A stretch of DNA of 64,000 bases, from assembly GCA_001803045.1 (NCBI GenBank), contig MHAR01000028.1, forward strand, positions 1 through 64,000, given 5' to 3'. Source of the DNA: Ignavibacteria bacterium RIFOXYB12_FULL_35_14 (lineage in GTDB: Bacteria > Bacteroidota > Ignavibacteria > Ignavibacteriales > Ignavibacteriaceae). The notes under the pieces are model-generated. The model did no database searches, had not been told where the DNA came from, and saw only the letters and a program-made list of their open reading frames with translations. The position numbers were made by a program, and so were the translations under genes. Below, one piece after another: positions 1 to 20,000 of this stretch (position 1 is its first letter; the number at the start of each line of letters is the position of its first letter).

Positions 1-1
1 C

Positions 2-103
2 AAAGTTGATGTCGTTGGTTATTTGTTCCGCTTCGATTATTCATTCAGCAATTTCATTTTACTGAATGCAGTTCACCGCTTTGGTTTAGGGATAACATTG
101 TAA
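2..103 (+). CDS. C-terminal end of a PorV/UPF0164-like outer-membrane barrel protein (partial)
   Basis: An open frame enters from the left edge and ends at TAA 101-103, giving 33 residues. The tail contains FDYSFSNF followed by VHRFGLGITL, which resembles the last two strands of PorV/UPF0164-family barrels (xDYxxxxFG...HRFSLxxxF). PorV-type proteins act in the outer membrane as T9SS shuttle components, but many FCB genomes hold several paralogues of other roles. The start is outside the window. Assignment rests on this short tail only. Confidence 0.45.
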   Translation, partial: KVDVVGYLFRFDYSFSNFILLNAVHRFGLGITL

Positions 104-196
104 ATTGATCGGCAGTTTATTCCTTCTTTGAGTAAAGTGCTGTGATTTCATGGACCCAAACGGTTTTTATTTCATTTCGATACCTAAAGTTCATTA

Positions 197-2599
197 ATGA
201 AAAAATTTTTAACGGTTATACTTGTTATTTTTTTTACTGTACCGTATAGTCAGCCGTTCATCGGAAATTATCCAAAACCTTCTTCGGAGGTTTCCTCAAA
301 TAATGATTCAACTTTCCTATCTTTTCCTTCTTCGCATTACACACCACACGGTTATCTTGATAATCCATATCATAGTATGATCTTTAACCGGAGCGGAATT
401 CTTCGCTCTTTTCCACCGATGGGATTTGGTTTTTGGCGGACAGATTTTAAAGGAAGTTATGGGGAAGGACCGCGTGATCATCAAAATTACTTATCGTTGC
501 TGCAAATTGGAATCACTATCGACGGGCATTCATTCACGACAACAGATGATTTTTCAAAAGCTGGCGTAGAATTGTATTCTGCCTATCATACAAAAAATAT
601 TTTCAGTTACGATTGGAATTATGACAACATTAATGTCAGCATAAAATATTTTCTTCTGCGCGAACATTCACTGGTGTGTATTATCGAACTACAAAATTCT
701 GGTAAGGATGACAAAATTGTGAGAGTCAATGGTACACATATATTCAAAATTGGAGATGTGAAATGGTGGGGCAGCAACGGAATAGCGTCGAATTATTCCG
801 TCCAGAACGACGCAATCATCAGCAAAATATGGGCGTACGGTGATATTTTTGTTTTTGGCTCTGACCAGAACAGTGTTGCACATACATCAACCGAATCTGA
901 AAAACAATGGAAAGATTGGTTGAAATCTAGTGTTGTGGGTTGTATCGAAAGTGCATCGCTCATGGGAAAAGGTCCGATGCATTCATTGCTGAGCTACAAC
1001 ATTAGTGTGCCGGCGAAAAGTTCGCGATCGCTAGTTCTCTATTTATGTCGGGGGAAAAATGAGGAATGGGCAAAGAAAGAATTTATCAATGCAAAAGCAG
1101 ATGTAATGACCGCTTTCCAAAACAAGATCAATGAAGACAACCAATTCTGGTCGCAAGCTCCGATGCTCTCTGGCGATTGGCCTGAAACATGGAAACATGG
1201 ATGGGTGTACGATTTTGAAACTCTGCGCATGAATGTGCGCCAACCTCTCGGCATTTATAAACATCCGTGGGATGCCATGCAAGTGTCTTCGCCGCGTGTT
1301 GTGCTAGGCGAAACGTGTATGGATATGATGACGTTAAGTTACTCTGATCCTGAGTTGGCAAAAAAAGTTTTGTATGGAACTTTTGCCGACGCGATCGCGC
1401 CCAATGTTCCCTGTTCACGCGAAGATGGCAGTGTCAATATGGTTTCTGCTGATGGTTCGGAGTGTGGTACCGCTCCAATGTGGGGTTATCCGTTTCATGT
1501 TATACAATTAATTTTTGCATTATCGGGTGATACGGTTTGGGTTGATTCACTTTATCCGTATTTGAAATCGTATATAGAATGGTGGCTTCGGTACCGCACA
1601 GATTCCGAAGGTTGGCTGCACTGCAACAACAGTTGGGAATCGGGGCAGGATGGTTCAAAGCGATTTATCGTTGCCGAACACAACGAGGGCGCGGTTGCAG
1701 ATTTTGTACGTACAGTTGATGTTGAAGCAAGTATGGCAGAAGCAATGATGGTTATGGAAAAATTTGCCGATATTCTTGGAAAAAAACACGATCAGGAAAA
1801 CTGGAAAATACTTTCTGAACAACGGATAAAAAATACGCACGCAATGTTTTTCGATAATTGGTTCCGAGATGTGGATGCGCGAAACGGAAAGCCGATTCTC
1901 CTGAAAGAGTATTATGATGTGATGATGCTGACTCCGCTTGCCTGTAAAGTAGCAACGCCGGATCAGATAGAGCAGGTAAAACCGATGCTCCATTATTTTG
2001 CGTCTAACCGCCGGCTCGAATGGCCGCCGGGTGTCTTTACCTTTACTGAAGCTGCATGGAATGCAGGGGAGCGTGAAATAGCGTCTCAAGTTGTTGTATC
2101 AACGGCAAATCGTGTGTATGAGCGTACCGATATGAAAACAATACTGTTCTCCGATTCACTCTTTTCATATCGAATCCCAGGGGTGGCAAATGAATTCTGG
2201 CCGTCGGATTTCGTCCCTGCAGGTGGAGAAAATTATGGGTGGGGAGCGACACTACCTCTCTATATCATAAAAAATATCATAGGTTTTAGAGAATCGTCGC
2301 ACCAACGGGTTAAAGGATTTACACTTGCACCGATGCTGCCGAAAAAATATATGCAAAGTGGGATGAGCTACACTATTCGGAATCTTCATTATTTGAATTT
2401 TACTTTTGACGTGACCTATACCGTACAAAATGAGAATGAATTTCTAGTTTCATTGAAGTATCATGCATCAACACCTTTATCTTTTTCGGTTCTTGATGAA
2501 CGAGGGAAAGAGCTTTACATTCTCAAAGAGAATATGATGAGTAGGAGTTTTACTTTCGATGGGGTTAACGGGAATGTATATCAAATTCGAATAAATTAA
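197..2599 (+). CDS. Exported (alpha/alpha)6-barrel glycoside hydrolase, GH37/GH63 trehalase-like superfamily
   Basis: Predicted 800-residue exported protein. Residues 1-18 form a signal peptide (MKKFLTVILVIFFTVPYS). An N-terminal beta-sandwich (about 45-310) is followed by a helical toroid (about 320-720) and a small C-terminal beta domain. W480 starts WESGQDGS, the aromatic-acidic signature seen in trehalase/GH63 enzymes, and GGENYGWG near residue 678 fits the end of the barrel. These families cleave terminal glucosyl or mannosyl linkages; the actual substrate cannot be read. It is the first gene of a run of secreted glycan-degrading proteins on one strand, 45 bases before the next gene. No T9SS tail is visible, so a periplasmic location is likely. 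Family is fairly sure, specificity unknown. Confidence 0.7.
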   Translation: MKKFLTVILVIFFTVPYSQPFIGNYPKPSSEVSSNNDSTFLSFPSSHYTPHGYLDNPYHSMIFNRSGILRSFPPMGFGFWRTDFKGSYGEGPRDHQNYLSLLQIGITIDGHSFTTTDDFSKAGVELYSAYHTKNIFSYDWNYDNINVSIKYFLLREHSLVCIIELQNSGKDDKIVRVNGTHIFKIGDVKWWGSNGIASNYSVQNDAIISKIWAYGDIFVFGSDQNSVAHTSTESEKQWKDWLKSSVVGCIESASLMGKGPMHSLLSYNISVPAKSSRSLVLYLCRGKNEEWAKKEFINAKADVMTAFQNKINEDNQFWSQAPMLSGDWPETWKHGWVYDFETLRMNVRQPLGIYKHPWDAMQVSSPRVVLGETCMDMMTLSYSDPELAKKVLYGTFADAIAPNVPCSREDGSVNMVSADGSECGTAPMWGYPFHVIQLIFALSGDTVWVDSLYPYLKSYIEWWLRYRTDSEGWLHCNNSWESGQDGSKRFIVAEHNEGAVADFVRTVDVEASMAEAMMVMEKFADILGKKHDQENWKILSEQRIKNTHAMFFDNWFRDVDARNGKPILLKEYYDVMMLTPLACKVATPDQIEQVKPMLHYFASNRRLEWPPGVFTFTEAAWNAGEREIASQVVVSTANRVYERTDMKTILFSDSLFSYRIPGVANEFWPSDFVPAGGENYGWGATLPLYIIKNIIGFRESSHQRVKGFTLAPMLPKKYMQSGMSYTIRNLHYLNFTFDVTYTVQNENEFLVSLKYHASTPLSFSVLDERGKELYILKENMMSRSFTFDGVNGNVYQIRIN

Positions 2600-2644: not shown

Positions 2645-3670
2645 ATGAGAACGATTTTTCCTCTTTTCCTCTTATTCATCTGTTATACGAGTTGTTCTGT
2701 TTCTTCGGAGGAGTTACCATACGTGATTCATGTTGTCGTTGTAAAATATTTTCCCATCCATGGAGACAACATCGACATTGAAAAGACTGGAGATTGGGGA
2801 AAGGGGTTAGTGTTTACTCAGAAAAAAGTGGATAGTATAACAGCCGAACTTGCTAAATTACTTGGTAATGCTTCCTGCTACCGTGGTTACAAAAATCCAG
2901 ACGCTAAGCCTAGCATCAAATACGAAATAGTTAGTACATTCGAATTTTACGAACCGATGCCTACAGTTAGAGGAACGCATCTCGACCCACCAATGACAGA
3001 TTACAATACTATTATCCAACGTATTGATGGAAAGGATTGGATCGAAAACAGAGATGTAAAGGAAATCTGGGTTTGGGGTTATCACGGCGGTAAAGTTGGG
3101 TTATGGGAATCCAATATGGCTGGTCCGTTTGGTGATATCAGCAATAGCGACCGTGCATTAGATGATCTTCCCATTTTTTCTAAGACCTTTACTTTGTTTC
3201 ATTATAATTATCAGCGTGGTTTGTCTGAGGCAATTGAAGACCACATGCATCAAATTGAAGCACTCCTGAATTTTGTAGATGGACGTGATTCTACTGATGA
3301 AGACAAGTGGAGCGAACTTCTCTTCTGGGGGAAATTTGTCGGTAGCGATAAGAGCCACAAGATAATTCGACCTGGTTGCGGTTGGGTACACTATCCACCA
3401 AACGGAGAGAAAGATTACGACTGGGCTAATAAAAAGTATGTTGATACAGATATCGAAGATTGGAAACCGGACGGGACGGGTACTAAGCAAAACATGAACT
3501 GTGAAAGATGGAAGTGTAATAGTCTATCGTGGTTTCAATACTGGATGCAAAACCTCCCTGGTTATAACAGCGGACTTTCCTCCGAAGGCAAACCGTTGAC
3601 CAACTGGTGGATTTTTGTAGGAGATTTTGACACAGCGATGAAAAATAGAATGAAGTTGACAGCACCATAA
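2645..3670 (+). CDS. Secreted protein of an uncharacterised family (HxxE / HYPPNG), short form
   Basis: Predicted 341 residues with a hydrophobic N-terminus ending in YTSC (Cys17), a near-lipobox, so it may be a lipoprotein. I do not recognise a named family. Its C-terminal two thirds align by eye with residues about 265-590 of the protein at 14918: KEIWVWG (139-145), YQRG (189-192), HQIE (202-205), HYPPNG then DYD (249-259) and NWW (320-322) all have counterparts in the same order. The repeated His, Glu and Asp positions look like a metal or catalytic site, which is inference. It lacks the Ig-like domain and T9SS tail of the longer relative. It sits between a glycosidase and a metallopeptidase-like gene, suggesting action on glycoprotein or polysaccharide. 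Confidence 0.6.
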   Translation: MRTIFPLFLLFICYTSCSVSSEELPYVIHVVVVKYFPIHGDNIDIEKTGDWGKGLVFTQKKVDSITAELAKLLGNASCYRGYKNPDAKPSIKYEIVSTFEFYEPMPTVRGTHLDPPMTDYNTIIQRIDGKDWIENRDVKEIWVWGYHGGKVGLWESNMAGPFGDISNSDRALDDLPIFSKTFTLFHYNYQRGLSEAIEDHMHQIEALLNFVDGRDSTDEDKWSELLFWGKFVGSDKSHKIIRPGCGWVHYPPNGEKDYDWANKKYVDTDIEDWKPDGTGTKQNMNCERWKCNSLSWFQYWMQNLPGYNSGLSSEGKPLTNWWIFVGDFDTAMKNRMKLTAP

Positions 3671-3700: not shown

Positions 3701-6484
3701 ATGAAAGAAAAAGCTATACAAAATACATTAAGCGTCATTGCTGTTACACTCATTTTATTCTTACTCACGAATGATGTGTGTTTTTCGCAAGGAACTTTCC
3801 GCGACTCGATCTGGTATGCGAACTTTGTTAAGCACTCTGATGGTTCGCTATGCAATCACATTGCGCCTACAGCGACGTTCGTGTGCTATCTTAATGGGGA
3901 TCAGAGCAGAACACTCACTGAGAATGCCGCCCGCTGGGGTTTATCACCCGATCCAAACATCGATGGCAAGGGTGTGTTTGGAGTTGAACTCGGCAATTTC
4001 ATCAATCCAAGTCTGAAAGTGGGGGATAGTGTTTTCGTTCGTTTCACCTGCTCCGCAAATGGAGAACAAGAAGTACTTTCTGACGTGGTGAACAATATTC
4101 CGCCAGTGCGATTTCCACTTTTTTTGAAACTTACTAAGAAAAATATTCCGCAGCAACTCGAGAACTTGACAATATCATTCAGCCCTGAAAAACACCGGGT
4201 GCTTCAATGGGATTCAATTTCGGGTGTAACATACACTGTGTATCGCCGCAATTTTTCTGACACATTATCAAATGGAAAGTCGCGCGGTCTCTATGAGCTT
4301 CTTGCATCAAATCTTACAACTACTGCTTATGTTGATTCCCTCCCCTTTACGAGTTACTATCACGGATACATTGTTTTTGCCATCTCGAGTGGTGGCGTTT
4401 ACAGCGCCGCATCGAGTGAAGTGACCGAGCCTGACACGAATAGATTCCAGCTTAGTGTCATCCCCAGCGCGACGACAGTTACTCTTTCTTGGAGTTCGAT
4501 AACAGATTCAAACCACGTTGTAAGGGGCTACAATATTTATAAACGCACTGAAAATAGTACATACGGTCAGCCGATTGGTTATAGCGGCTTAGATACATCA
4601 TTCATTGTTTCTCGTTTGCCGCTTGGAACAAAATTTTTCTATAAAGTAAAAGGCAGAATCGATGCCGCAAAGGAAATCGGTGAATCAAATGAAATCGCCG
4701 CAACCACCTTGACTTCAAGGGACGGGTTTTATACGTACGCAAACCTTAAAGTTGCTGTAGTGATTTATATGAATACCAATCGCGGTTCAATTTCAGATGC
4801 TGAAGTAGTAAAGATTCGCAAGATGCTTGAAGTCGGAAGACTTTTTTATTGGCGGAATTCTTTAATGAAATTGAATACCCCATTTACCTACTATCTGATT
4901 GATACCTACAAGGATTTTCCAAGCCGGGATGATTATGCCGTGAGTCGAACGGCGAATGATCTTCAAGCTCTAGGTGTAATGAACACGCAGTACGATATTG
5001 TGTTTCGCATTTCTCCTGCAACCAGCGGCTATTGGTCATTCGGTGTGCTGAATTTGAATTTGCCAGGTCCCGCCCGAAGTACAGGTTTTTCACATTCAGA
5101 GTGGCCTGTCGGGACAGGTGTTCAGTTCCCCGCTTATCAACCCGGCATTAATTTCGGATTGACTTGGATATATATTCACGAAGTTCAACACGCTCTCGAT
5201 GGGCTTTATGAAGCCAATGGCCAACCCCAAATGTACCATGGCGATCAACCGCATGAATTTCCTGTTCCCGCCGGCGAACAACTGGATTTTCAAGCAAAGA
5301 TGTTCCGTGATTTCACTGGGTATGAGAGGTTGTTGCCTCAGTGGGGTGGAATACAAGAAGCGATTGATGGTGATAAGGATGGGTTTCCGGACAATGAGCC
5401 GCTTCTGCCTTTGGATGAAGTGCGTTTTGGCAGTAGCGCTTTCCAGGTTGATACAGATGGAGACGGCTATACGGATCGTCAGGAAGCTCTGGATGGAATC
5501 TACAACGGAAGCAACCCAAACAATAGTGACACTGACGGTGACAGTATTTCCGATGGGAACGATCCTTATCCGCGTTATCCTGTGAACACTCCTGTTCCTA
5601 TCTTTACCCCTACAATTGACGGTGTCATCGAAAGCGGATGGCATCTTGCGAATGACACAATAAGTTTCTCACCTATTAACTACGAACCAAAAATCTATAT
5701 TAACTACGACGACAATTATTTGTATATTGGTTTTAACTTGAGTTATCCGGGAATTCCCCAACTGCAGTTGGATTTTGGTGCAAATGGGTGGTGGTGGGGA
5801 ACCGGAAATACGATCATGACTATTAATCCATCGCAAGGGCAATTCACAGAATTCCATACGTGGGATGCGAGCCCCGAGGTTCAAGCCTATGCCCTGTCGC
5901 TCAATCAGTACGGTGGAATGTGGGATGACAACGCTGTATATCAACAAAAATTCTCACGTAGGGTGATTGATCCTTCCTCTACGATCTTGAAAGTTAATTA
6001 CAGTAACACAGTATCTCAAATTGAAATGGCAATTCCCAAAAGCGATTACGGGGGATTAACATTAACGAGCGGAAGTAAAATTGGATTAAACATTACATAT
6101 TCTAATGTCAAATACGTCCCTGCATTCTGGGCATCAACATTCGACCGTTATAGCTTTGTAAACTTTGTTGTTGACAAACCTGTGGGCGTGGAGGAACAGA
6201 ATAGACAAGAAGGAATTGTCTCCACATTTTCGCTGGATCAAAACTACCCAAATCCATTCAATCCCGAAACAGTGATCAGTTATCAATTGCCTGTAAACGG
6301 TTTTGTGTCACTTAAAATATTTGACCTACTCGGACGAGAAGTTACAACACTCGTCAATGAGCGGAAAGATGCGGGAAAATACAGTGTGGAATGGAAAGGG
6401 GTGAATCAACCAAGCGGAGTCTATCTTTACCATCTTCAGGTAGGAAGTTTTCATGAAACTAGAAAGATGATATTGCTTCGTTAA
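3701..6484 (+). CDS. T9SS-secreted multidomain HExxH metallopeptidase-like protein with CBM9-like domain
   Basis: Predicted 927 residues. Domains in order: signal peptide (1-30); a module with LTENAARWG and FGVELGNF (about 31-135); two fibronectin-III-like domains (about 165-335); a region with HEVQH at 493-497, a zinc metallopeptidase HExxH motif; two Asp-rich thrombospondin-3-like calcium repeats (DTDGDGYTD, DTDGDSISD, about 560-625); a CBM9-like domain (about 635-840) opening with TIDGVIESGW; and a T9SS sorting domain (from about 853, NYPNPFNPETVISY). It should therefore be exported and surface-attached or released. A third zinc ligand cannot be placed with certainty, so peptidase activity is inferred. 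The first module plus Fn3 recurs inside the glycosidase encoded immediately downstream. Context suggests attack on glycosylated protein. Confidence 0.72.
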   Translation: MKEKAIQNTLSVIAVTLILFLLTNDVCFSQGTFRDSIWYANFVKHSDGSLCNHIAPTATFVCYLNGDQSRTLTENAARWGLSPDPNIDGKGVFGVELGNFINPSLKVGDSVFVRFTCSANGEQEVLSDVVNNIPPVRFPLFLKLTKKNIPQQLENLTISFSPEKHRVLQWDSISGVTYTVYRRNFSDTLSNGKSRGLYELLASNLTTTAYVDSLPFTSYYHGYIVFAISSGGVYSAASSEVTEPDTNRFQLSVIPSATTVTLSWSSITDSNHVVRGYNIYKRTENSTYGQPIGYSGLDTSFIVSRLPLGTKFFYKVKGRIDAAKEIGESNEIAATTLTSRDGFYTYANLKVAVVIYMNTNRGSISDAEVVKIRKMLEVGRLFYWRNSLMKLNTPFTYYLIDTYKDFPSRDDYAVSRTANDLQALGVMNTQYDIVFRISPATSGYWSFGVLNLNLPGPARSTGFSHSEWPVGTGVQFPAYQPGINFGLTWIYIHEVQHALDGLYEANGQPQMYHGDQPHEFPVPAGEQLDFQAKMFRDFTGYERLLPQWGGIQEAIDGDKDGFPDNEPLLPLDEVRFGSSAFQVDTDGDGYTDRQEALDGIYNGSNPNNSDTDGDSISDGNDPYPRYPVNTPVPIFTPTIDGVIESGWHLANDTISFSPINYEPKIYINYDDNYLYIGFNLSYPGIPQLQLDFGANGWWWGTGNTIMTINPSQGQFTEFHTWDASPEVQAYALSLNQYGGMWDDNAVYQQKFSRRVIDPSSTILKVNYSNTVSQIEMAIPKSDYGGLTLTSGSKIGLNITYSNVKYVPAFWASTFDRYSFVNFVVDKPVGVEEQNRQEGIVSTFSLDQNYPNPFNPETVISYQLPVNGFVSLKIFDLLGREVTTLVNERKDAGKYSVEWKGVNQPSGVYLYHLQVGSFHETRKMILLR

Positions 6485-6526
6485 AAGACAAATCATTTAA
6501 TCCTCAACTCAATAGAGAAATCATCG

Positions 6527-9250
6527 ATGAAAAAAATAATCATTCTTTTTGTAATTGCACAAGTTGTTTCATTTGCGCAGCAGACGAAGCCCTATCTCTC
6601 CAACCTTAATGCAACAAAAACATCGCCGCTCTATACAACTTATGCCGCAGCAATGGAACGGTCGGAATTTACGCTTGACGAGGGGTATCATTTCCTTTTT
6701 TACGATTCGACACGTGGAGCAGATTTTATAACTGATAATGCAGGTGATTGGTCCCTCGGTTTTCGGAAAGGAGCAAAGTATGTCTCATCAATCAATGAAA
6801 TGTACAAACAACCTATTATTACTGCATCCTATCCGGATTTAGTGAATTATAATTTTTATCCATTTGAAAACATCAAAGTTGATGTGATGTTTTTAGTGTA
6901 CAGCTCGCATACCGCGATTCAGGATATAACAATCACAAATCTCGGTTCACAAAAAGCAGCTATCGATATTCTGCCTTATCTTAGAAACAATTATCGTTCA
7001 TTCAACGAAGTGCAAATTCTTAAAGAAAAAAATGCAATGACATTTTCGCATGAAGAGTTTCCTGATAGTTGGGTGCTTGACCATAAAGTGCCGTATGTTG
7101 ACAAAGTGTACGATGCATTTCTTTTTTCTGAGCCGATGGATCGGTATGCAAGTTTCAGAAGCTATAAATGGGGACCGGTGGAAATCCCTCAAAAGATTGA
7201 AATTGAAAAACAAAGCCAGTATGTGGTATGGGGAAGGATTTTACATAAGAATGGAGAACGTTGTCGTCATCTTCCTCCTGAACTGAAAATGATGGTGATG
7301 TTGAATAACGATAAAAGCAGAATCCTAACTGAAAACGCGCCACGATGGGGAAGTGCGGAAACGAATGTGAATTCCTACAGTTTGTATGGCGCTGAATTGG
7401 GAAATTTCGGTGCGGTAGAAATTGGAGATGCCTTTACATTTATCCTTGCATGTAAAGAATCGAATCAGGATGTCGTTATCAACGGAACAGTGACAGATAC
7501 ATCGAAAGAGCGCGATCAGCGGATCGATGGTAAACTGAATGATGCTACATTGATCAACGCCCCCCAAGGAGTGAAACGCGATATCTGGGGAAGCGGAACT
7601 GAGTTGCGTCTATATTGGAAAAAAAGTGAAACCGGCGTTAAGTATAATGTTTATCGTCGTGATTATTTAAAAAGCGGTTTTTATGAATTGATAGCCTCAT
7701 CGCTTGAACAACCTTTCTTTACCGATAAAAATATTCCCGATGATAAAGTATATGGTTATGTCGTTACAGCAGTTGATGCACAAGGACGTATGAGTATGCA
7801 TTCGGATGAAGTAAACAATATCGAAGGAAGCGATTTTCTTACTGATATTAAATATCCTGGTCAAGTAAAAGGGGATGCAAAAGATCTTGCAAAAATTATT
7901 TCTGCATCTAAGCGTTTTGAGGTTTCTGCAGGAGAAAGCGAACAACTTCGCATTATTCGTACAGTGCGAAGACCGACAGATGACGAGGATAAAACTATTA
8001 CCGAATCGCGAAAATTATTTTCGGAAGATATAAATAAATATCTCACGGCAAATGAAAAACTTTTTTCATCAATTCTGGCGCCGAAATTCGATAACTCTGA
8101 AAAAGAAATGTTATACTGGACAGCATTTTCACTTATGCGCCAGGTAATGCTTCCGCCGGAAGGGGAAAGCAGCTTCAACTATTATGTCTTTTCACGCGAA
8201 CCGCAGTGGGGATGGGGACACGGCGGGCAAGTCTTTCACGAGAGTCTAACGATGCTTGCCTATGCGTTGATGGATAATGTAAGCGCGATGAATTCTCAAC
8301 GCGTATATCGAGAGCGCCAATATAAAGACGGGTATATCAATTACCGCACCGGTGCATTTCTCAATGAAACCATTCCGTATGAAAACCAACTTACATCTTC
8401 TGCTCCATGGTATGCTTGGCAGAATTGGGAAATTTATAAAATCACAAAGGATAAAATATTTCTTGAAGAGATGTATGAATCGAGCAAATCATTCTACAAT
8501 TACTATGTAAGTAACAGAGACAGTGACGGCGATGGATTATGCGAGTGGGGTGCACACGCAGTACTAGAATGTGTTCGTGATGGAAAAGTTGCTGTGTGGG
8601 ATGAAGTCGGTTGGCCGAGCAATTTTGAGGCGGTTGATTTGAATTCAATGTTAGTCATGGAAGAAAAATCTCTTGCAGCAATGGCGATGGAACTTGGAGA
8701 AAAGAGTGAAGCGAAAGAATGGAATCGTAAAGCAGCGGAGCGATCAAAAAAAATCAATGATACAATGTGGGATAATTCGACCGGATTCTATTATAATGTA
8801 GATAAGATGACAAACACGTTCACTCACAAAAAGCTCAACGATCTGAAGCGTGAGGAGATTATCGGATTCCTTCCGCTCTGGGCTGGTGTCGCGGATGAAC
8901 AGCAGGCAAAAAAACTGATGCAGAAGTTGACAAATCCCAAAAAATTTTGGCGCAAGTATGGTGTACCGACACTTGCTGCAGATGATTTATATTATAATCC
9001 TAAAGGATATTGGAATGGTCCTGTATGGGTGCAGTGGAATTATTTAATAGAACGTGGCATGATTGATTATGGGTATAAAGCAGAAGCAAGAGAATTAGTA
9101 AACCGCGTTGCAACTAATATGATTGAACAACTGAAAAAAGATCATAATTTTTGGGAGTTCTACAGCCCTGATGAACAATGGGCAGGTTATAACAAAACGT
9201 ATTTGTGGGCTGGTATTATAACACGAATGATGTTAGATGCTCTGCAATAA
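6527..9250 (+). CDS. Exported GH63-like (alpha/alpha)6-barrel glycosidase with inserted module and Fn3 domain
   Basis: Predicted 907 residues with signal peptide 1-17 (cut near SFAQQ). The overall scheme matches the protein encoded next (start 9648): N-terminal beta-sandwich beginning with NATKTSPLYTTYAAAMERS, then a helical barrel (about 500-907) with WGWGHGGQVFHESL (561-574), YWNGPVWVQWNYLI (828-841) and FWEFYSPD near 875-882. The last two are typical of GH63/mannosylglycerate-hydrolase enzymes, and the Glu of FWEFYSPD (877) aligns with their general base. By eye, the place of the GH63 catalytic acid (WGWD in YgjK) reads WGWG here. Unlike its neighbour it carries about 200 extra residues (about 230-430): the LTENAPRWG/YGAELGNF module and an Fn3-like domain. 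Substrate unknown. Confidence 0.7.
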   Translation: MKKIIILFVIAQVVSFAQQTKPYLSNLNATKTSPLYTTYAAAMERSEFTLDEGYHFLFYDSTRGADFITDNAGDWSLGFRKGAKYVSSINEMYKQPIITASYPDLVNYNFYPFENIKVDVMFLVYSSHTAIQDITITNLGSQKAAIDILPYLRNNYRSFNEVQILKEKNAMTFSHEEFPDSWVLDHKVPYVDKVYDAFLFSEPMDRYASFRSYKWGPVEIPQKIEIEKQSQYVVWGRILHKNGERCRHLPPELKMMVMLNNDKSRILTENAPRWGSAETNVNSYSLYGAELGNFGAVEIGDAFTFILACKESNQDVVINGTVTDTSKERDQRIDGKLNDATLINAPQGVKRDIWGSGTELRLYWKKSETGVKYNVYRRDYLKSGFYELIASSLEQPFFTDKNIPDDKVYGYVVTAVDAQGRMSMHSDEVNNIEGSDFLTDIKYPGQVKGDAKDLAKIISASKRFEVSAGESEQLRIIRTVRRPTDDEDKTITESRKLFSEDINKYLTANEKLFSSILAPKFDNSEKEMLYWTAFSLMRQVMLPPEGESSFNYYVFSREPQWGWGHGGQVFHESLTMLAYALMDNVSAMNSQRVYRERQYKDGYINYRTGAFLNETIPYENQLTSSAPWYAWQNWEIYKITKDKIFLEEMYESSKSFYNYYVSNRDSDGDGLCEWGAHAVLECVRDGKVAVWDEVGWPSNFEAVDLNSMLVMEEKSLAAMAMELGEKSEAKEWNRKAAERSKKINDTMWDNSTGFYYNVDKMTNTFTHKKLNDLKREEIIGFLPLWAGVADEQQAKKLMQKLTNPKKFWRKYGVPTLAADDLYYNPKGYWNGPVWVQWNYLIERGMIDYGYKAEARELVNRVATNMIEQLKKDHNFWEFYSPDEQWAGYNKTYLWAGIITRMMLDALQ

Positions 9251-9641: not shown

Positions 9642-9647
9642 ATGATT

Positions 9648-11804
9648 GTGAATTTATTTAAAGTGTCATTCCTGATTCTGATTGTCTCGCTTTTTCTCTG
9701 CGAGAAAAGTGATCCGCAGGTGACGGTGCATGATGAATTTTTAAAACTCAATGCAAAAACAAACGATCCGCTCTTTACAAATTACGCGGCTGCAATTTCA
9801 CGGTCGCGGTTTTTTGCCGATAAATCATACTTTATGAACTATTTCACTTCAGACAAACCGATCACATACTCCAGTCAATATGCCGGAGATTTCACTGTGA
9901 TTTGGAAAGTGAACAATATGGTGATCAGCAACATTCGTGATTATGCAAAACAACCTGTTGTGATTGCATCATTCCCTGATATGGCTATATTGGAGTATGA
10001 ACCGTTCCAAAACATAAAAGTTCAAGAAGTATTTTTCGTCTATACTTCAGGGTCTGCAATTATAGAGCTTACATTCGAAAATACCGGCAACATTCCGTAC
10101 GATATTATGCTTTATTCGCTGGTTTACATGCCGGAAGATTCGATGCAAATTATGCAATATGATGAATCAAATCAGGGTTATGTTTTTACGCATCATGAAC
10201 CTTACGAACGATTGCACAGCAATCTGTATAAAGAACGCGGTTATCCATCTAATTTTCTGAACTTGCTTTCCTGTAATACTTCTCTTCAAAGTTACGGTGC
10301 TTATAATGTGTGCGATCTCGATCAATTTTATTTTGACATAAAACGTTTGAGCAAAGTCCACGAAAATGTTATTGCACTTAATGAACAAAAAAGTGGACTT
10401 GTTAATATAGCAGCGCTGCAAAAAAATATAAAACTTCAACCAAGAGAAAAAACATCCGTCCGTTTTATAAGATCGGTTCAAGATGAACGAAGTCCTGAAA
10501 GTGAATTGATAACGGATTCAAAATCTGCTAAGACAATTGAGCTACAAAAATATGTGGATGAGAATATTGAGTTATTCAAAACTATTCCACGAATACAATT
10601 TAAAACAGCTAAAGAAAAGATAGTCTACATCGGTGCGTTTAATCTTGTGCGCCAATGCATGCTTCCTCCCAGCGGACAAACACCCCATAATTTTTATGTT
10701 TTTTCACGTAATCCTGTATGGGGCTGGGGGCATGGGCATCAAGTAATGCATGAATCACTCTCGATGATTCCTTATGCGTATCTCGATCCAATATCAGCGC
10801 AGGCATCTCAACGGGTTTATATCGAACAGCAATATGAAGATGGATTGATAGCTTATCGCCATGGACCCCGCGGACCTCAAGTTTATCCGCATGAAGGAAT
10901 CCCTTCAACTTCAGCGCCGTTTTTTTCGTGGACTAATTGGGAAATTTATAGTGTAAGCAAAGATAAAATATTCTTAAAAGAAAGTTATGACGCCGGCTCG
11001 AAGTACATCCGCTACCTCGAAAAAGAACGGGATCAGGATCAGGACGGAATGTATGAATGGGGACCGTATGGAATAATAGAAAATGTTCGTGACGGTTGGA
11101 ATGTAGTCTTTCAATTATTTTCTGAAGGAACGGATGAAGGAAGAGATATTTCCCACGAACTTGATGTTCTCGACTTGACATCAGAAGTTGCAAATGAAAT
11201 GTTTTATCTCAAATCTATGGCAAAGGAGTTAAAAGATACTGCCGGCATTCGCGAGTGGACAGAAAAATTTGATAAAACTGCAAAGCTTATCAATAAATAT
11301 ATGTGGGACAAAAAGGATAAATTTTATTATAACGTCTCGATGGCAGATAACTCGTTTGAGTTTGAAGGGGCTAGTTTAAAACGAAAAGAACTGATCGGCT
11401 TTTTACCGATGTGGGCGCGCGTTGCAACCCAAGAGCAAGCAAGTGAACTTGTTAAGCATTTAACAAACGATAAATCATTCTGGCGGAAATATGGAATTCC
11501 CACTTTAGCTGCTGATGATCCGAATTATACACCGTTCATTGACGGCTGCTGTCGCTGGAATGGAGCTGTATGGCTGCTTTGGGATTATATGGTAATGGTA
11601 GGATTAAATAATTATGGATACGACAAACTTGCGCGGCAAGTTGCTGATAAAATGATGCTTGCCGTAACAACACAGCTTGAAACAAATCATCATTTCTGGG
11701 AATCATATAGTCCGGATTATCCAGTGCAGGAAAGCCCGTCAAATTATATATGGGATTCCATTATGGCGAAAGTATTGATTGAAATGTATACGAAGAACCG
11801 ATAA
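9648..11804 (+). CDS. Exported GH63-like (alpha/alpha)6-barrel glycosidase, paralogue of the 6527 gene
   Basis: I place the start at GTG 9648 rather than ATG 9642, because AAAGGAG at 9634-9640 lies one base from the ATG but seven from the GTG. The product is then 718 residues with an N-terminal hydrophobic signal (VNLFKVSFLILIVSLFLC). It shares with the upstream protein the opening NAKTNDPLFTNYAAAISRS, the barrel motif WGWGHGHQVMHESL, WRKYGIPTLAADD, NGAVWLLWDYM and FWESYSPD. The Glu of FWESYSPD fits the GH63 general base. It lacks the inserted module and Fn3 domain of its neighbour. An exo-glycosidase acting outside the cytoplasm is likely; substrate unknown. 26 bases separate it from galT. 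Confidence 0.7.
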   Translation: MNLFKVSFLILIVSLFLCEKSDPQVTVHDEFLKLNAKTNDPLFTNYAAAISRSRFFADKSYFMNYFTSDKPITYSSQYAGDFTVIWKVNNMVISNIRDYAKQPVVIASFPDMAILEYEPFQNIKVQEVFFVYTSGSAIIELTFENTGNIPYDIMLYSLVYMPEDSMQIMQYDESNQGYVFTHHEPYERLHSNLYKERGYPSNFLNLLSCNTSLQSYGAYNVCDLDQFYFDIKRLSKVHENVIALNEQKSGLVNIAALQKNIKLQPREKTSVRFIRSVQDERSPESELITDSKSAKTIELQKYVDENIELFKTIPRIQFKTAKEKIVYIGAFNLVRQCMLPPSGQTPHNFYVFSRNPVWGWGHGHQVMHESLSMIPYAYLDPISAQASQRVYIEQQYEDGLIAYRHGPRGPQVYPHEGIPSTSAPFFSWTNWEIYSVSKDKIFLKESYDAGSKYIRYLEKERDQDQDGMYEWGPYGIIENVRDGWNVVFQLFSEGTDEGRDISHELDVLDLTSEVANEMFYLKSMAKELKDTAGIREWTEKFDKTAKLINKYMWDKKDKFYYNVSMADNSFEFEGASLKRKELIGFLPMWARVATQEQASELVKHLTNDKSFWRKYGIPTLAADDPNYTPFIDGCCRWNGAVWLLWDYMVMVGLNNYGYDKLARQVADKMMLAVTTQLETNHHFWESYSPDYPVQESPSNYIWDSIMAKVLIEMYTKNR

Positions 11805-12883: not shown

Positions 12884-14869
12884 ATGAAAAACATTTTATG
12901 GTTATTTAGTATTTTTTTGTTAATCGTTTGTACGACAAAGGTATTTGCACAAAACAAAAATTATGTTTCTAACCGCCAACCACTTATCAAAAATCCATTT
13001 ATCCAGCTTCCTATCGGATCGATCTCTCCAAAAGGATGGCTGTTGCAGCAGTTCAAACTTTCTGCAATTGGAATGACTGGGCGCCTCGATGAAATCTGGA
13101 AAGATGTCGGTCCCGATAACGGATGGCTTGGTGGAAAGGGAGATCCATGGGAACGGGGACCATACTGGTTGGACGGTTTAGTACCTCTTGCCTACACATT
13201 AAAAGATCCAATCCTCATCAAGAAAGCCCAAGCATGGATAGAATGGAGTTTGAAAACACAAAGATCGGATGGATATTTTGGACCTCAGAGAGACACCACA
13301 AGAAAATTTTCCGACAAAGAACGCTGGCAGGCATGGATGGAAAAAAGCAAAGAAGATTGGTGGCCCCACATGATAATGTTGAAAGTCATGCAGCAATACT
13401 ATGATGCGACAAACGATAAACGCGTTTTGAAATTCATGCATAAATATTTCCAATACCAGCAATTGCAATTACCTACAAAGCCACTTTCGTATTGGTCACA
13501 TTGGGCAAGATCTCGCGGTGGAGAGAATCTGCAAAGTATCTACTGGCTCTATAACAGAACAGGAAAGGTATGGCTGCTTGATCTTGCACAGATTGTATTT
13601 TCTCAAACCGAAGATTGGACGGGAATGTTTGAATCCGGTGATCCAAAATACTGGCATGGGGTGAACACGGGAATGGGAATAAAGCAGCCCGGAGTCTATT
13701 ACCAGCAGTCAAAAGACGAGCGTCACATCAAAGCAGTAAAAAAAGGGATTGCTGATTTGATGAAATATCATGGTCAGGTAAACGGAATGTTCTCGGGAGA
13801 TGAAATTTTACATGGGACGGATCCTTCTCACGGAACAGAATTATGCACTGTTGTAGAATATATGTTCAGTCTTGAAACTTTGCTGCAAATAACCGGCGAT
13901 TTAGAGTTTGCAGAGATATTGGAAAAACTTGCTTTCAATGCATTACCTGCCGGTATTGAACCGGACTTTACAGGGCGGCAATATTATCAAACCCCAAACC
14001 AGATAGTCTGTGATACTTTATACCAGAACTTCAATACAAGGCACTGGGGAACTCATCTCTTCGGACTCGAAGATGGATATGGCTGTTGCACGGCAAACTA
14101 TCATCAAGGATGGCCAAAGTTCACAAGTCAATTGTGGCTTGCAACGCAGGATAATGGGCTTGCAATTATGACCTACGCTCCATCGGAAGTATCTGCGAAA
14201 GTTGGCAATGGAATCGCCGTAAATTTTGTAGAAGAAACAAATTATCCGTTTGATGAAAAGATTCTGCTGAAATATACAGGAACAAAAGATGTTGAATTTC
14301 CTCTCTATCTTCGTATTCCGTCATGGTGCAGCTCTGCTACGATCAGCATAAATAGAATTCCACAAAATTCCCGTAAAGCAGGTTCTCTTGAAAAAATATC
14401 CAGAAAATGGAAAAATGGAGATGTTGTTGAAATTATTTTTCCGATGGAAGTCCGGTTATCAAAATGGCATGAAGAAACGATTGGAGTGGAGCGTGGTCCG
14501 TTAGTGTACGCATTAAAGATGAGTGAAGAATGGAGAAAAATAAAGGGGATAGAACCTTACGCAACGTATGGAATTTATTCTAACGATCCGTGGAATTATG
14601 GATTGATCATCGGCGATGAAAACGAACCTGATTCCAGTTTTACGTTTCAAAAAAATGACATGCAGCTTCAACCGTTTGTTGCAAATGCCGCTCCATTAAC
14701 ATTAAGAGTTAAAGCAAAACGTATTCCTGAATGGCAGCAATATGGCGGTGTAGCCGGTCCGGTACCGTGGAGTCCGATCCGTTCGAAAGAACCTGTTGAG
14801 GAAGTTACATTGATTCCGTATGGCTGCACAAAACTGCGGATCGCACAATTTCCTGTAATAGAAAAATAA
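12884..14869 (+). CDS. GH127-family beta-L-arabinofuranosidase-like exported enzyme (DUF1680)
   Basis: Predicted 661 residues with signal peptide 1-22 (cut after VFAQ). The opening PFIQLPIGSISPKGWLLQQ and the block VEYMFSLETLLQITGD...LAFNALPA are hallmarks of DUF1680/GH127. The zinc-thiolate centre known from Bifidobacterium HypBA1 (Glu338, Cys340, Cys417, Cys418) is matched by Glu319, Cys321, Cys401 and Cys402 here; the second cysteine pair includes the nucleophile. Glu307 in SGDEILHG is a candidate acid/base. Known members remove beta-L-arabinofuranose, for instance from hydroxyproline-linked arabino-oligosaccharides of plant extensin, although related families act on other linkages. Starts 13 bases after galT, so likely cotranscribed. 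Confidence 0.85.
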   Translation: MKNILWLFSIFLLIVCTTKVFAQNKNYVSNRQPLIKNPFIQLPIGSISPKGWLLQQFKLSAIGMTGRLDEIWKDVGPDNGWLGGKGDPWERGPYWLDGLVPLAYTLKDPILIKKAQAWIEWSLKTQRSDGYFGPQRDTTRKFSDKERWQAWMEKSKEDWWPHMIMLKVMQQYYDATNDKRVLKFMHKYFQYQQLQLPTKPLSYWSHWARSRGGENLQSIYWLYNRTGKVWLLDLAQIVFSQTEDWTGMFESGDPKYWHGVNTGMGIKQPGVYYQQSKDERHIKAVKKGIADLMKYHGQVNGMFSGDEILHGTDPSHGTELCTVVEYMFSLETLLQITGDLEFAEILEKLAFNALPAGIEPDFTGRQYYQTPNQIVCDTLYQNFNTRHWGTHLFGLEDGYGCCTANYHQGWPKFTSQLWLATQDNGLAIMTYAPSEVSAKVGNGIAVNFVEETNYPFDEKILLKYTGTKDVEFPLYLRIPSWCSSATISINRIPQNSRKAGSLEKISRKWKNGDVVEIIFPMEVRLSKWHEETIGVERGPLVYALKMSEEWRKIKGIEPYATYGIYSNDPWNYGLIIGDENEPDSSFTFQKNDMQLQPFVANAAPLTLRVKAKRIPEWQQYGGVAGPVPWSPIRSKEPVEEVTLIPYGCTKLRIAQFPVIEK

Positions 14870-14917: not shown

Positions 14918-16990
14918 ATGAAAAGACGCAAACACTATTTAATATTGTTTATTCTCTTCGTATGCGCAGTAGTAACACAGGCGCAGATAGTACAGCTTCG
15001 TACAGTTGATATAGGAGCGCTATGGAAAGCCGGAAAGGCACACCCAAATTTTGTTCCGGCATATTCCGGCGATACCTTAAAACCGTTTGACGGCAACCCG
15101 TTTAATGCATTAGAAATGTTGAATACAGATTCTCTGATTCTAACCGTTCAATTTGATTCAGCAATCAGTATTGAAAAAGCAAAAACATATTTTTGGCATA
15201 ATGCTGAATGGTTTCTCGAATCTGCTAATTCACTTACCGACTTAAATTCAAAATTAGGGACATACTCATTACTTGTTCCTAAAAAGTCGGCAAATAGTTT
15301 TCAATGGGATTCTTCCGCATTTGCTAAGAAAGAAGTTTCGTTAATACGGTTGTCAATAAAAAATCCTTCTGATTCAACTATTCGCTTCGGTGAATTAGTC
15401 TTAGAAGGAAGTATCACATTCACGAAGTTTATTATTTTACCTCAACCGATTCAAATTATTCCCAACACATCTCTGCAATTGCAACTGAAGATTCAAGATG
15501 AACAAGGGAATTTCCATTCAAATTTTATTTCTTCACCGATTTTATGGGAATCTTCTAACCATTCAATTGCAACCGTGGATGAATTTGGTAAAGTTTCCGC
15601 ATTTGCTCTGGGAGAATGTGAGATCACCGTGCGGACTCTGGACAACAAACTAAAAGGTTTTGCTCCGCTGATGGTTGTGCAAGATTTCCGTTCAACAAAA
15701 GTAAAACCGATGACAGTGAAAGTAGCATTGGTCATTCAGGATCCGTGGCTGCCATCGAGCAATCGAATTCATGAAGAATTTGGCTGGCGGGACCCGAAGC
15801 AGTTGTCGAATAAACTTGTGTTTCATTTTAAAGAAGCGACGGACAGTGTCGTGAATTTTCAATTCGTGGAGATCATTGATGCAAACATTCTCTTCACTCG
15901 CTTTTACGGAAACTTTCTTAGCGTTACCCAATATGTTGAACTGCTCAAAGAACCCGGATGGAAAACACTGCGCGCAGCTGAAGATTCAGGACAGATCTGG
16001 TTCGATTACCGCGAAATGGTGAAATACTATCATTTTGATGAGAAGAGAAACAATAACTCCATTGATGAGGTGTGGGTGTTTGCCGCTCCATTCCTCGGCA
16101 TGTATGAATCGCAACTGATGGGACCCAAGGCATTCTGGTGGAACTCTCCTCCTATTAAAGACGGAACAGCATTGAATAAACTTCTTTCCGTGATGGGATT
16201 GAATTACGAACGCGGCGTTGACCAAGCGTTTCACAGTTTTGGACATCGCGTAGAGAGCGCTCTTGCATATGCATATTTTGAAGCCACGGGACTTAATTGG
16301 AATTCTACAAGGACTAATCCAACTCCGTGGGATCTATTTACGAGGATAGAGAAAGATATGCCAGGTGAGGCGCACGTCGGCAATGTTCATTTTCCACCGA
16401 ACGGTGCTCACGATTACGATTATGGTAATTCAACTATAGTGAAGTCGTTTGCCGAAAACTGGTACCGTTATCCCTATCTTCTCGATCAAAGTAGTCAGGT
16501 GAATGTAGCTACGTGGCTTTACACTCCAGGAGAACCACTCGCCGAAGGACAGGATCATTTAGGGTTCTTGCGATGGTGGTACGGTCATATTCCAAGATAT
16601 GAAGGTGTAAGTAATGGAGTGTTGAACAATTGGTGGCATTATGTTGTGGATTATGAAGCTGCGGTTGCACTTGCAAAAAGTACACATCCGGTTGGTCTGC
16701 GTGAAGAAAATTCTCTTAATCCGCCGCGAAAGTTTGGACTTGAACAGAACTATCCAAATCCGTTTAATCCTTCAACAGTTATAAACTATTCATTGGAGAA
16801 TCCGTCACATGTTTCGGTAAAGATATTTAATATGCTTGGAAAGGAAGTAGCTACATTGATTGATAAGATAATGAGTCTCGGACAACACAACGTTCAATGG
16901 AATGCGCAAGGCTTTTCTTCCGGGGTATATTTCTATCAATTAAAAACCGGGGACATTATTCAAACTAAAAAAATGGTTTTGCTGAGATGA
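14918..16990 (+). CDS. T9SS-secreted protein of the uncharacterised HxxE / HFPPNG family, with Ig-like domain
   Basis: Predicted 690 residues: signal peptide 1-22, an N-terminal discoidin-like beta region (about 25-165), a bacterial Ig-like (Big_2) domain (about 168-255, SIATVDEFGKVSAFALG), a central domain of unknown function (about 265-590) and a T9SS sorting domain (from about 607, NYPNPFNPSTVINY). The central domain matches the protein at 2645: DEVWVFA (383-389), YERG (430-433), HRVE (443-446), HFPPNG...DYDYGN (491-504) and NWW (571-573). The conserved His/Glu/Asp set could bind metal or catalyse hydrolysis, but no function is known to me. A TGTAAATAAGGAT leader precedes this gene and also the next one. 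Confidence 0.65.
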   Translation: MKRRKHYLILFILFVCAVVTQAQIVQLRTVDIGALWKAGKAHPNFVPAYSGDTLKPFDGNPFNALEMLNTDSLILTVQFDSAISIEKAKTYFWHNAEWFLESANSLTDLNSKLGTYSLLVPKKSANSFQWDSSAFAKKEVSLIRLSIKNPSDSTIRFGELVLEGSITFTKFIILPQPIQIIPNTSLQLQLKIQDEQGNFHSNFISSPILWESSNHSIATVDEFGKVSAFALGECEITVRTLDNKLKGFAPLMVVQDFRSTKVKPMTVKVALVIQDPWLPSSNRIHEEFGWRDPKQLSNKLVFHFKEATDSVVNFQFVEIIDANILFTRFYGNFLSVTQYVELLKEPGWKTLRAAEDSGQIWFDYREMVKYYHFDEKRNNNSIDEVWVFAAPFLGMYESQLMGPKAFWWNSPPIKDGTALNKLLSVMGLNYERGVDQAFHSFGHRVESALAYAYFEATGLNWNSTRTNPTPWDLFTRIEKDMPGEAHVGNVHFPPNGAHDYDYGNSTIVKSFAENWYRYPYLLDQSSQVNVATWLYTPGEPLAEGQDHLGFLRWWYGHIPRYEGVSNGVLNNWWHYVVDYEAAVALAKSTHPVGLREENSLNPPRKFGLEQNYPNPFNPSTVINYSLENPSHVSVKIFNMLGKEVATLIDKIMSLGQHNVQWNAQGFSSGVYFYQLKTGDIIQTKKMVLLR

Positions 16991-17029: not shown

Positions 17030-20000
17030 ATGGGTAAATATTTTTTACTATTCATGCTTTTGTTCGCAGTGACAACTATAGCAATTGCTCAGCAAAAATA
17101 TTGCATTGGATATTTGACATCAGCTCTTGAGATATCTAAAGAAGATGATGCCGCAATAGCATGGTTAGATAATTCGAAGAAATTCAATTGTAAAATTATT
17201 AAAAAAGTAGAAAAAGGAAATCAGGATTTTGTTGGAACGGATGTTTTATGGATTCACCTTCCTGATTCAATTGGATTAAACAATCTACTTAAACAAAAAA
17301 ACATTCTTTCTCATTTAAATAAATATTATCAAAATGGTGGGAAAATTCTTTTCACGGATTATGCTGCTATGTTACCGAATGCCATGGGTATTGAACCTAA
17401 GAAACCGGAAATCCGTCATGATACGATTCAGAACGAATGGTTATTTGATAAGCGTGGATTTCAAGGGCATTTGGGTCATCCGCTATTTGCAGGATTTTTT
17501 GGTGGTGAGTACGTATGGGATGCCAATGAAGATCAAATAATGTCTTTTGTGGGATATTTTGGGAAAGATTTTCCGGAAAAGGGGAAAGTAATTGCCATAG
17601 ACAAGGCATACGTTTTTGTCTATGCGGAAAGAAAGATTGTGATTGAGCACTCTAATAAAAAAGGGAAAGTAATTTCAATTGGTTCAAGTATTTATTTCAG
17701 CAAGTCAAACAATCTTCGGAACAATCTTGAACATTTTATGGAGAATACGCTTCAGTATCTTGCCGGTGAAAAATTTAATGAACCCGTTACTTACTGGAAA
17801 AAATTTACTAATAAACCTATTCTTTTTACTGAAAAGAATGTCCCTATAGTTCTTTCAAAAGAAAGGGAAATGAAAAATATTCCTCACTCCGAATTGCTTT
17901 TTACTCGTTTAGAACCGCAAAATAATTATTATGAAGCTTCCGGACGTCGTGCGCTTATCATGGGAAAAGAAAATGGCGGAATTGAGGAAGTATGGGTGCA
18001 TCCATTAAGGATTCTTCGTGATTATGAGGTTGGAATTTTAACAGGTGATTCGATAACATGGTTGCAGAATTACCCGGTGAACGTTGAAATTCGCCCTGAA
18101 TCCTTTAATCGGATTTATTCGACTCCTTTCGGCGAATTGAAAGAAATTATTTTTGCTTCATTATGGAAAGCTGGAGGCATTGCTCATTATACTTCAACTT
18201 TTTCAACGAAACTTATCATTCGCTTTCGTAGCGATTTGCGTTGGATGTGGCCCTACGATGCTAATGCACTTGGGGATGTGCACTATGCTTACGATGAGAC
18301 GATGAATACCCTTCATTTAAAAGATACAACAGGGAAATTTTATTGTTTGTTTGGTGGTGATATAATTCCCTCATTAAAAATCAGTGGGCAGTTCCAAAAA
18401 ATTCAATGGTCGCCGAAAGGATTTGTAGGAACCGAAACGAATGAGAATCAAGTATATCATGCGGTTATGTATGATCTGAGTATGAAAAATAATTTCACAC
18501 TCAATTATACTTTTCTTGGAACAAATGAAGGGAAGGAAAAAGCGCTTACTGATTACCGAATACTTCTCGAAAAACCTGAAGAACAGTATGCTGAACAGGT
18601 TGTGCATACAACCGATCTTTTAAAACGCACAGTACAAGTATTTTCTCCCGATATAGAATTTAATGCGCTTTTCAAATGGGCGATTGTTGGCACAGATAAA
18701 TTTCTTGCCTATACTCCTGGACTTGGAACGGGTTTACTTGCCGGATTTGCAACCTCAGCTCACGGCTGGAATGGAGGCCATAAAAACAGTGGGCGTCCCG
18801 GCTATGCCTGGTATTTTGGGCGCGATTCAGAATGGTCCGGGTTCGCTATTAATGACTACGGCGATACAGAATTAGTGAAAGAACAACTAAAATTTTTACA
18901 ACGGTATCAGGATAGATCCGGAAAAATATTCCATGAAATCTCTACAAGCGGGGTTGTCCATTATGATGCAGCCGATGCAACTCCATTGTATATAATTCTT
19001 GCCGGTCATTATCTGCGTGCATCAGGTGATATTGAATTCATTAAAGAAAGCTGGATGCATCTTAAGAGTGCAATTGATTTTCTTTATTCAACTGATACAG
19101 ACGGTGATGGGTTGATTGAGAATACAAACGAAGGACACGGCTGGGTTGAAGGTGGTGCTTTGTTTGGAGCCCATAGTTCTTTTTATCTTTCATCGTCTTG
19201 GGGTCAAGTATTAAAGGACATGTCTTTTATTGCTGCATTAATCGGCGAAAATGACCTGGCAGCAAAATACTCTATGGATGCGAAAAAAGTTCAAAAAATA
19301 TTAAATACTGATTTTTGGAATGACTCAACTCAATTCTATAATCTCGGGAAATTGAAAGATGGAACTTATCAAACCGAACCGACCGTACTTCCAGCTGTAG
19401 GTGCGTACTTTAATTTGTTAGATGATGCTAAAGTAAAATATATGCTTGATGCTTATGCTTCAAATAGTTTTAGTACAGACTGGGGTACTCGTATTGTGAG
19501 TTCTTCTTCAAAATTATTCAAACCAACAGGATATCATTATGGAGCTGTATGGCCGCTTTTTACGGGGTGGACTGCTTTGGCGGAGTACGAGTATGGGAAC
19601 TCAGTACAAGCGTTCTCGCACTTCAATGAAAATCTTGCAATTAAAAATTTTTGGGCGCTTGGATATGTTGAAGAGGTAATGAATGGCTCAGTATATAAAC
19701 CATCAGGTGTTTGTCCACATCAGTGCTGGTCTGAAACAAATATTCTTCATCCAGCAATCACTGGCATGATTGGGTGGAAACCGAATGCGGTTGAACAAAG
19801 TGCGACACTCAAACCGAGATTCCCGCTTTCTTGGGATACTATCTCTGTTGCAGATTTACGATCAGGGAAGTCATTGCTTCAACTCTCGATGAAACGCGGA
19901 TTAAACAGAACGGTGTACTCTATCAAACTTATTGAGGGACCGGAACTAAAAGTTCAATTCTCTCCTGAAATTCCGGATGGGATGAAAATTAAAAAGGCAT

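Follow-up and report, generated by a model that had tools for sequence, protein, structure and literature searches.

It is known that enzymes belonging to a single saccharolytic system can share accessory domains, and in Bacteroidota the SusCD-type and T9SS-linked loci associate a TonB receptor bearing a CarboxypepD_reg domain with a surface protein and secreted enzymes. The locus described here has the same composition but, as seen so far, the partner of its TonB receptor is a T9SS-tailed protein accompanied by a PorV/PorQ-family barrel instead of a SusD lipoprotein. Regarding its enzymes, the glycosidase GH_B resembles YgjK and the GH63 family (clan GH-G), with which it has in common an (alpha/alpha)6 catalytic domain, a glutamate as general base and an N-terminal sandwich domain. 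In YgjK, the general base is Glu727, according to a PDB mutant and the family literature, and Asp501 is the general acid (PMC7263609). The metallopeptidase-like protein MP is similar in modelled fold to metzincins such as adamalysin/ADAM and TACE, and shares their HExxH motif. Finally, a small domain present in both MP and GH_B has a predicted overall fold that may resemble, weakly, that of transthyretin/CnaB-like domains (TTL domains of carboxypeptidases D and N, CnaB, N-terminal extension of SusC), without sequence or profile relation to them.

In the window, i.e., the whole stretch of 64,000 nucleotides that was analysed, the MGH1-like glycosidase GH_A, assigned by Pfam (197..2599, + strand), is followed on the same strand by u341 (2645..3670), an uncharacterised secreted protein which recurs in such loci (neighbour cluster 18) and gave zero matches in Pfam and NCBIfam. 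Then come MP (3701..6484), GH_B (6527..9250), the insert-free sister glycosidase GH_C (9642..11804; BLASTP and tree) and a GH127 beta-L-arabinofuranosidase-like protein (12884..14869; PF07944, 116.7 bits), all on the + strand. Further along the window, u690 (14918-16990), a recurrent secreted protein of these loci, combines a Big_2 domain and a T9SS tail, and its His-containing stretch AFHSFGHRVE may be a candidate for a further metal site. A large MGH1/GH116-like protein with a DUF4960 domain is encoded at 17030-20401, and a complete GH97 at 29118-31232.

MP is a secreted HExxH metallopeptidase-like protein of 927 aa and of the type named here zII, recognised from its open reading frame, its HExQHAxD motif and its T9SS tail. 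This tail, a T9SS type A sorting domain (6245..6481, +), matched PF18962 with 27.5 bits (cut-off 27) and TIGR04183 with 37.8 bits (cut-off 23). In the zinc motif, the HE pair and the second His are invariant in 17 aligned sequences. The peptidase region, delineated by alignment, modelling and fold search (residues 338-606 as modelled, 4712..5518, +, with TSP3-like repeats at its end), was modelled with moderate confidence (pLDDT 75); it contains HEVQH (residues 493-497, 5177-5191, +), and helix 149-168 of the model covers the HExxH. Its closest folds were adamalysin/ADAM (Foldseek E 2e-4) and TACE (Z 11.4). However, the metzincin signature HExxHxxGxxH/D is departed from, since MP reads HEVQHALDGLY, in which Asp replaces the Gly and Tyr occupies the place of the third ligand. 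No Pfam peptidase family matched MP. Because the metzincin Gly and third ligand are missing, MP can be considered a zincin of unassigned family.

GH_B (907 aa, with a signal peptide by eye) is of the GH63/MGH1 catalytic type, as indicated by PF22422 (165.7 bits, cut-off 27) and PF03200 (47.3 bits, cut-off 22.4), and scored far below the cut-off of the YgjK equivalog NF007525 (126.4 bits against 625). In its catalytic domain (7937..9247, +), Glu877 (9155-9157) aligns with the general base Glu727 of YgjK in the phmmer alignment, and the catalytic Glu is kept in each glycosidase row covering the site, insert-bearing and insert-free alike. YgjK Asp501 falls in an unaligned stretch of this comparison, and the conserved VRD and WDE motifs are candidates for the general acid. 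Zero match to a T9SS tail was found in GH_B with Pfam and NCBIfam; hence, the enzymes of the locus probably lie on both sides of the outer membrane.

A BLASTP comparison of the two proteins aligned MP 43-249 with GH_B 238-437 (E = 1e-23, 29% identity). This agrees with the initial annotation, made from the sequence by eye, according to which a module followed by an Fn3 domain is common to the metallopeptidase-like protein and the glycosidase, and all the ordered motifs that it had named are present in the alignment. The two segments are thus sequence homologues. In MP, domain 1 of the module covers residues 31-135 (3791..4105, +, end approximate; BLASTP and AlphaFold) and the Fn3-like half residues ~151-245 (4151..4435, +; alignments and a weak PDB Fn3 match). 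In GH_B, an alignment of 20 glycosidases with and without the insert placed the borders of the whole insert at residues ~218-440 (7178..7846, +), in the N-terminal beta-sandwich region, with domain 1 at ~226-330 (7202..7516, +; by homology to the MP copy) and the Fn3-like half at ~345-437 (7559..7837, +; by alignment and PDB match); the ends of all module domains are approximate. The location in the N-domain differs from that of the named A' insertion of YgjK, which lies in the barrel domain (PMC7263609).

As had been proposed, domain 1 stands outside any named family: no meaningful match was obtained with Pfam and NCBIfam in 49 members, and the module gave zero match to any characterised Pfam domain. 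When a profile of these 49 domains was run against 59 related genomes, members scored E <= 1e-16 and the next matches E >= ~0.03, and because of this gap the module should be regarded as a discrete family rather than as a loosely defined motif. Nine positions are kept in peptidase and glycosidase copies, namely Cys21, R48, N56, E66, L67, N69, F70, G78 and D79 (module numbering). The strand described earlier as Cys-rich does hold cysteine, but "rich" was overstated, each module having 1-4 Cys; one Cys is invariant (49/49) and its likely partner is found in 42/49. A possible resemblance of GNF...GD to other secreted beta-domains was not confirmed by the profile search, and a literature text search for the module motifs or for a GH63 with an Fn3 insertion returned nothing relevant. 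Both proteins have an Fn3-like second half, whose best PDB relative is 3mpc, annotated as "Fn3-like protein"; the E value is 0.0097 with GH_B and 0.055 with MP, and Pfam Fn3 (PF00041) gave zero match in either protein at E 1.

The structure of domain 1 (~105 residues) was predicted with AlphaFold2 on a 49-row alignment, using the MP copy, and the fold of the GH_B copy was taken from homology. A seven-strand sandwich was obtained with high confidence (pLDDT 90.6, pTM 0.86). No relative was found among PDB sequences, and Foldseek gave zero PDB match below 0.001, the best being a carboxypeptidase D chain (E 0.02). With VIA, the Z scores were 7.6 for an S-layer protein domain, 7.0 for carboxypeptidase N, 6.8 for CnaB2, 6.5 for the SusC N-terminal extension and ~6 for transthyretin. 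The predicted topology may therefore be transthyretin/CnaB-like with weak similarity, Z values below 8 possibly reflecting merely a common arrangement. Homology with CarboxypepD_reg was considered and rejected, hhalign against 13 CarboxypepD_reg domains from these loci giving a probability of 0.2%, and zero CarboxypepD_reg match was found by Pfam in the 49 module members. No carbohydrate-binding-module family was prominent in the VIA list, with which a CBM-like nature remains compatible; by sequence, no link of the module to carbohydrate- or peptide-binding families was found.

In metallocarboxypeptidases, similar sandwiches serve as folding domains. This similarity would fit a structural or maturation role, in which the module would serve the peptidases as an N-terminal prodomain or spacer and would have been recruited by the glycosidase as a stabilising insert. 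Indeed, on all module peptidases the module is located near the N-terminus, and T9SS peptidases with N-terminal prodomains are known (gingipains, PMC10202324). However, its presence on unrelated peptidase folds and in a sugar enzyme misfits a protease-specific inhibitor, and the conserved charged and polar residues R48, E66, N69 and D79 suggest more than a spacer, so that we consider this role unlikely. Instead, the reading that we favour, with a probability of roughly 45%, is an ancient and so far unnamed two-domain accessory module which would be the non-catalytic recognition part common to the enzymes of one glycoprotein-degrading locus of FCB phyla. We infer both its non-catalytic nature and the binding of a motif common to the substrate of these enzymes. 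A recognition part is the best reading since the module is indifferent to the catalytic type of its host and recurs in one kind of locus.

These hosts were recovered with profile and collection searches in Ignavibacteriota, Calditrichota, KSB1, Neomarinimicrobiota and Bacteroidota, with zero match in a plasmid collection. The module is rare: among 395 genomes sampled from the phylum, ~6 have it, and the weaker matches there concern the Fn3 half only. At least four kinds of peptidase carry it: three HExxH types, i.e., HExQHAxD (zII, that of MP), HELGHARYLID (zI) and HELGHQxGLID (zIII), and C25 peptidases, found outside the window in L039 and L080 (PF01364, 41.4 and 26.8 bits, cut-off 23). Nearly all complete module peptidases end with a T9SS-type tail. 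The other hosts are GH_B-type glycosidases, in which the module invariably interrupts the N-terminal sandwich at one and the same site, and a few of these insert-bearing enzymes have a T9SS tail according to Pfam (L068, L073). Because three HExxH types, C25 and a glycosidase all carry the module, it would be a part conferring specificity rather than a part of one mechanism. It is unusual for one domain, nameless in Pfam and NCBIfam, to be carried by several unrelated peptidase folds and to be inserted in a glycosidase as well.

A module peptidase and an insert-bearing glycosidase were found on one contig in ten loci, mostly adjacent or one gene apart; these counts are biased since module patterns served to find the named loci, a bias from which the 395-genome sample is free. 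The pairing is not obligatory, as three genomes (G140, G144, G302) have the insert in a glycosidase without any module peptidase, and another (G038) combines a module peptidase with a GH_B that has no insert. The modules have a mean identity of ~43%, versus 58-68% for the catalytic domains (zII, zI); a faster divergence than that of catalytic domains is common for accessory parts. The module tree did not group by peptidase type (12 and 8 changes), one-clade trees not being rejected (AU p 0.15-0.35). Concerted evolution of the modules among the peptidases of one genome is not supported, within-genome identities being mostly equal to or below that with the best relative elsewhere. Besides, the contigs of L071 (labelled Deltaproteobacteria), L086 (labelled Archaeoglobus) and L076 bear near-copies of, or typical, Calditrichota-type loci, which are probably binning errors. 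In L066 (5520-8269, genome G302), a GH_B homologue is broken into overlapping frames of 746 and 181 aa, and its module has diverged strongly; this is a frameshift or a decaying gene.

The absence of the module from GH_C, from which the initial annotation had deduced that it was probably inserted within the locus, is borne out: in BLASTP, GH_C matches GH_B 27-190 and 454-904, not across the segment between. The deduced insertion itself is contradicted by the same insert site in glycosidase orthologues of Ignavibacteriota, Calditrichota, Neomarinimicrobiota and Bacteroidota, and by the module tree, in which every glycosidase-borne module is on one side of a branch (100/96), apart from the peptidase-borne ones. 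A copy of the module from MP into GH_B within this locus would account for two copies located 3.4 kb apart, the only ones in the whole genome. However, the MP module shares 71-76% identity with those of the nearest peptidase orthologues found elsewhere and only ~29% with that of GH_B, making such an event highly improbable. From these identities and the 100/96 branch, a recent transfer of the module from MP into GH_B is excluded in practice; the site shared across phyla and the separate glycosidase group likewise imply that the GH_B module is not a local copy of that of MP.

A search restricted to glycosidases yielded seven insert-free GH_B orthologues. Two of them (G038, G051) share the genome region with the same triad of genes described below. 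Since such orthologues exist, the module is dispensable for the glycosidase. The GH_C-type enzymes form a separate clade in the catalytic-domain tree (100/100), with the module in 0/11. Within the GH_B clade, the insert needs three changes, and a tree with all insert-bearing enzymes in one clade is rejected (AU p 0.0135). The simplest account, to judge by these trees, would be one old insertion into the GH_B lineage followed by losses. In several genomes (L131, L132, L134, L135, L137), insert-free GH_B and GH_C genes form neighbouring pairs, and the pairing of these two genes is therefore independent of the insert.

Clustering of neighbouring genes gave a recurrent order: a small protein, a PKD-like protein, a TonB receptor with CarboxypepD_reg, one or two 595-residue T9SS-tailed proteins, a PorV-PorQ family protein, the module peptidases and GH_B. 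Frequent additional genes are DUF2961, CotH and GalT (the latter by eye), and GH_A lies in other loci between the PorV-like gene and a module peptidase (order in L067/L068). The window lacks the upstream triad part, since it begins at the contig edge, where contig C28 opens with GH_A (window 1-200); no PorV-like orthologue is present in the assembly. Contig C74 ends with orthologues of the TonB receptor (69%) and of the 595-residue protein (63%) (L151, G000:C74:73-4607) and breaks off exactly at that point. An assembly gap between C74 and C28 thus divides the conserved operon.

In most of the loci whose upstream sequence is long enough, the module genes come after one triad subtype. In the 395 genomes, the 595-residue protein was found in seven and the module in six, four being shared (p ~5e-7, a value based on few positives and uncorrected for kinship), and the three sampled genomes with a module peptidase all have the 595-residue protein. 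In known T9SS, the tails of PorZ and PorU are retained, and these two proteins remain attached to PorQ and PorV (PMC10202324). Gene order, co-occurrence and this precedent would suit a docking role, the module holding the enzymes on a surface complex made of the TonB receptor, the 595-residue T9SS-tailed protein and the PorV/PorQ-family barrel. However, most module glycosidases, including GH_B, have no T9SS tail and would be periplasmic, i.e., on the wrong side, and two genomes (G144, G302) have a module glycosidase without the triad protein; docking is therefore rather doubtful. The glycosidase insert showed no significant link with the triad (2/4 versus 2/7, p 0.58), the triad protein of G051 lying beyond the fetched flank and that of G038 ~20 kb away.

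Since the enzymes are probably in both compartments, recognition of a shared substrate is favoured over that of a shared surface partner. The presence of GH63-like, GH127, GH97 and DUF2961-type genes beside the peptidases makes a glycosylated protein a reasonable target, and the locus probably degrades such a protein; DUF2961 corresponds to GH172 according to PMC10115798 and PMC8605356. In this recognition reading, the module would bind a motif on the substrate shared by the enzymes, surface peptidases would cut the protein part of the glycoprotein, the TonB receptor would take up the resulting fragments, and the mostly periplasmic glycosidase would use its module to hold this same motif as it trims the glycan part. 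In Bifidobacterium, GH127 and GH121 act on hydroxyproline-rich glycoproteins (PMC7263609), and this parallel may be a lead only as to the substrate. A more specific proposal, that a SusD-free TonB/T9SS-tailed/PorV system marks unrelated peptidases and a glycosidase with one domain, so that one glycan or peptide motif would be held on both sides, is speculative and rather improbable as a whole. The ligand of this small domain would indicate the substrate of the whole system in loci of uncultured Ignavibacteriota and Calditrichota.

In addition, at least six further triads of fixed order were observed in the same genome (contigs C5, C87, C61, C23, C55 and C8; L152-L157), each consisting of a TonB receptor, a long T9SS-tailed protein and a PorV/PorQ-family protein. 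By analogy, they may represent a SusD-free uptake unit used many times. The tails of their middle proteins are mostly KFAIIK-like, versus KMILLR-like on the secreted enzymes, and the association of a tailed protein with a PorV/PorQ-family protein in these triads resembles the tail-retaining PorZ-PorQ pair (PMC10202324).
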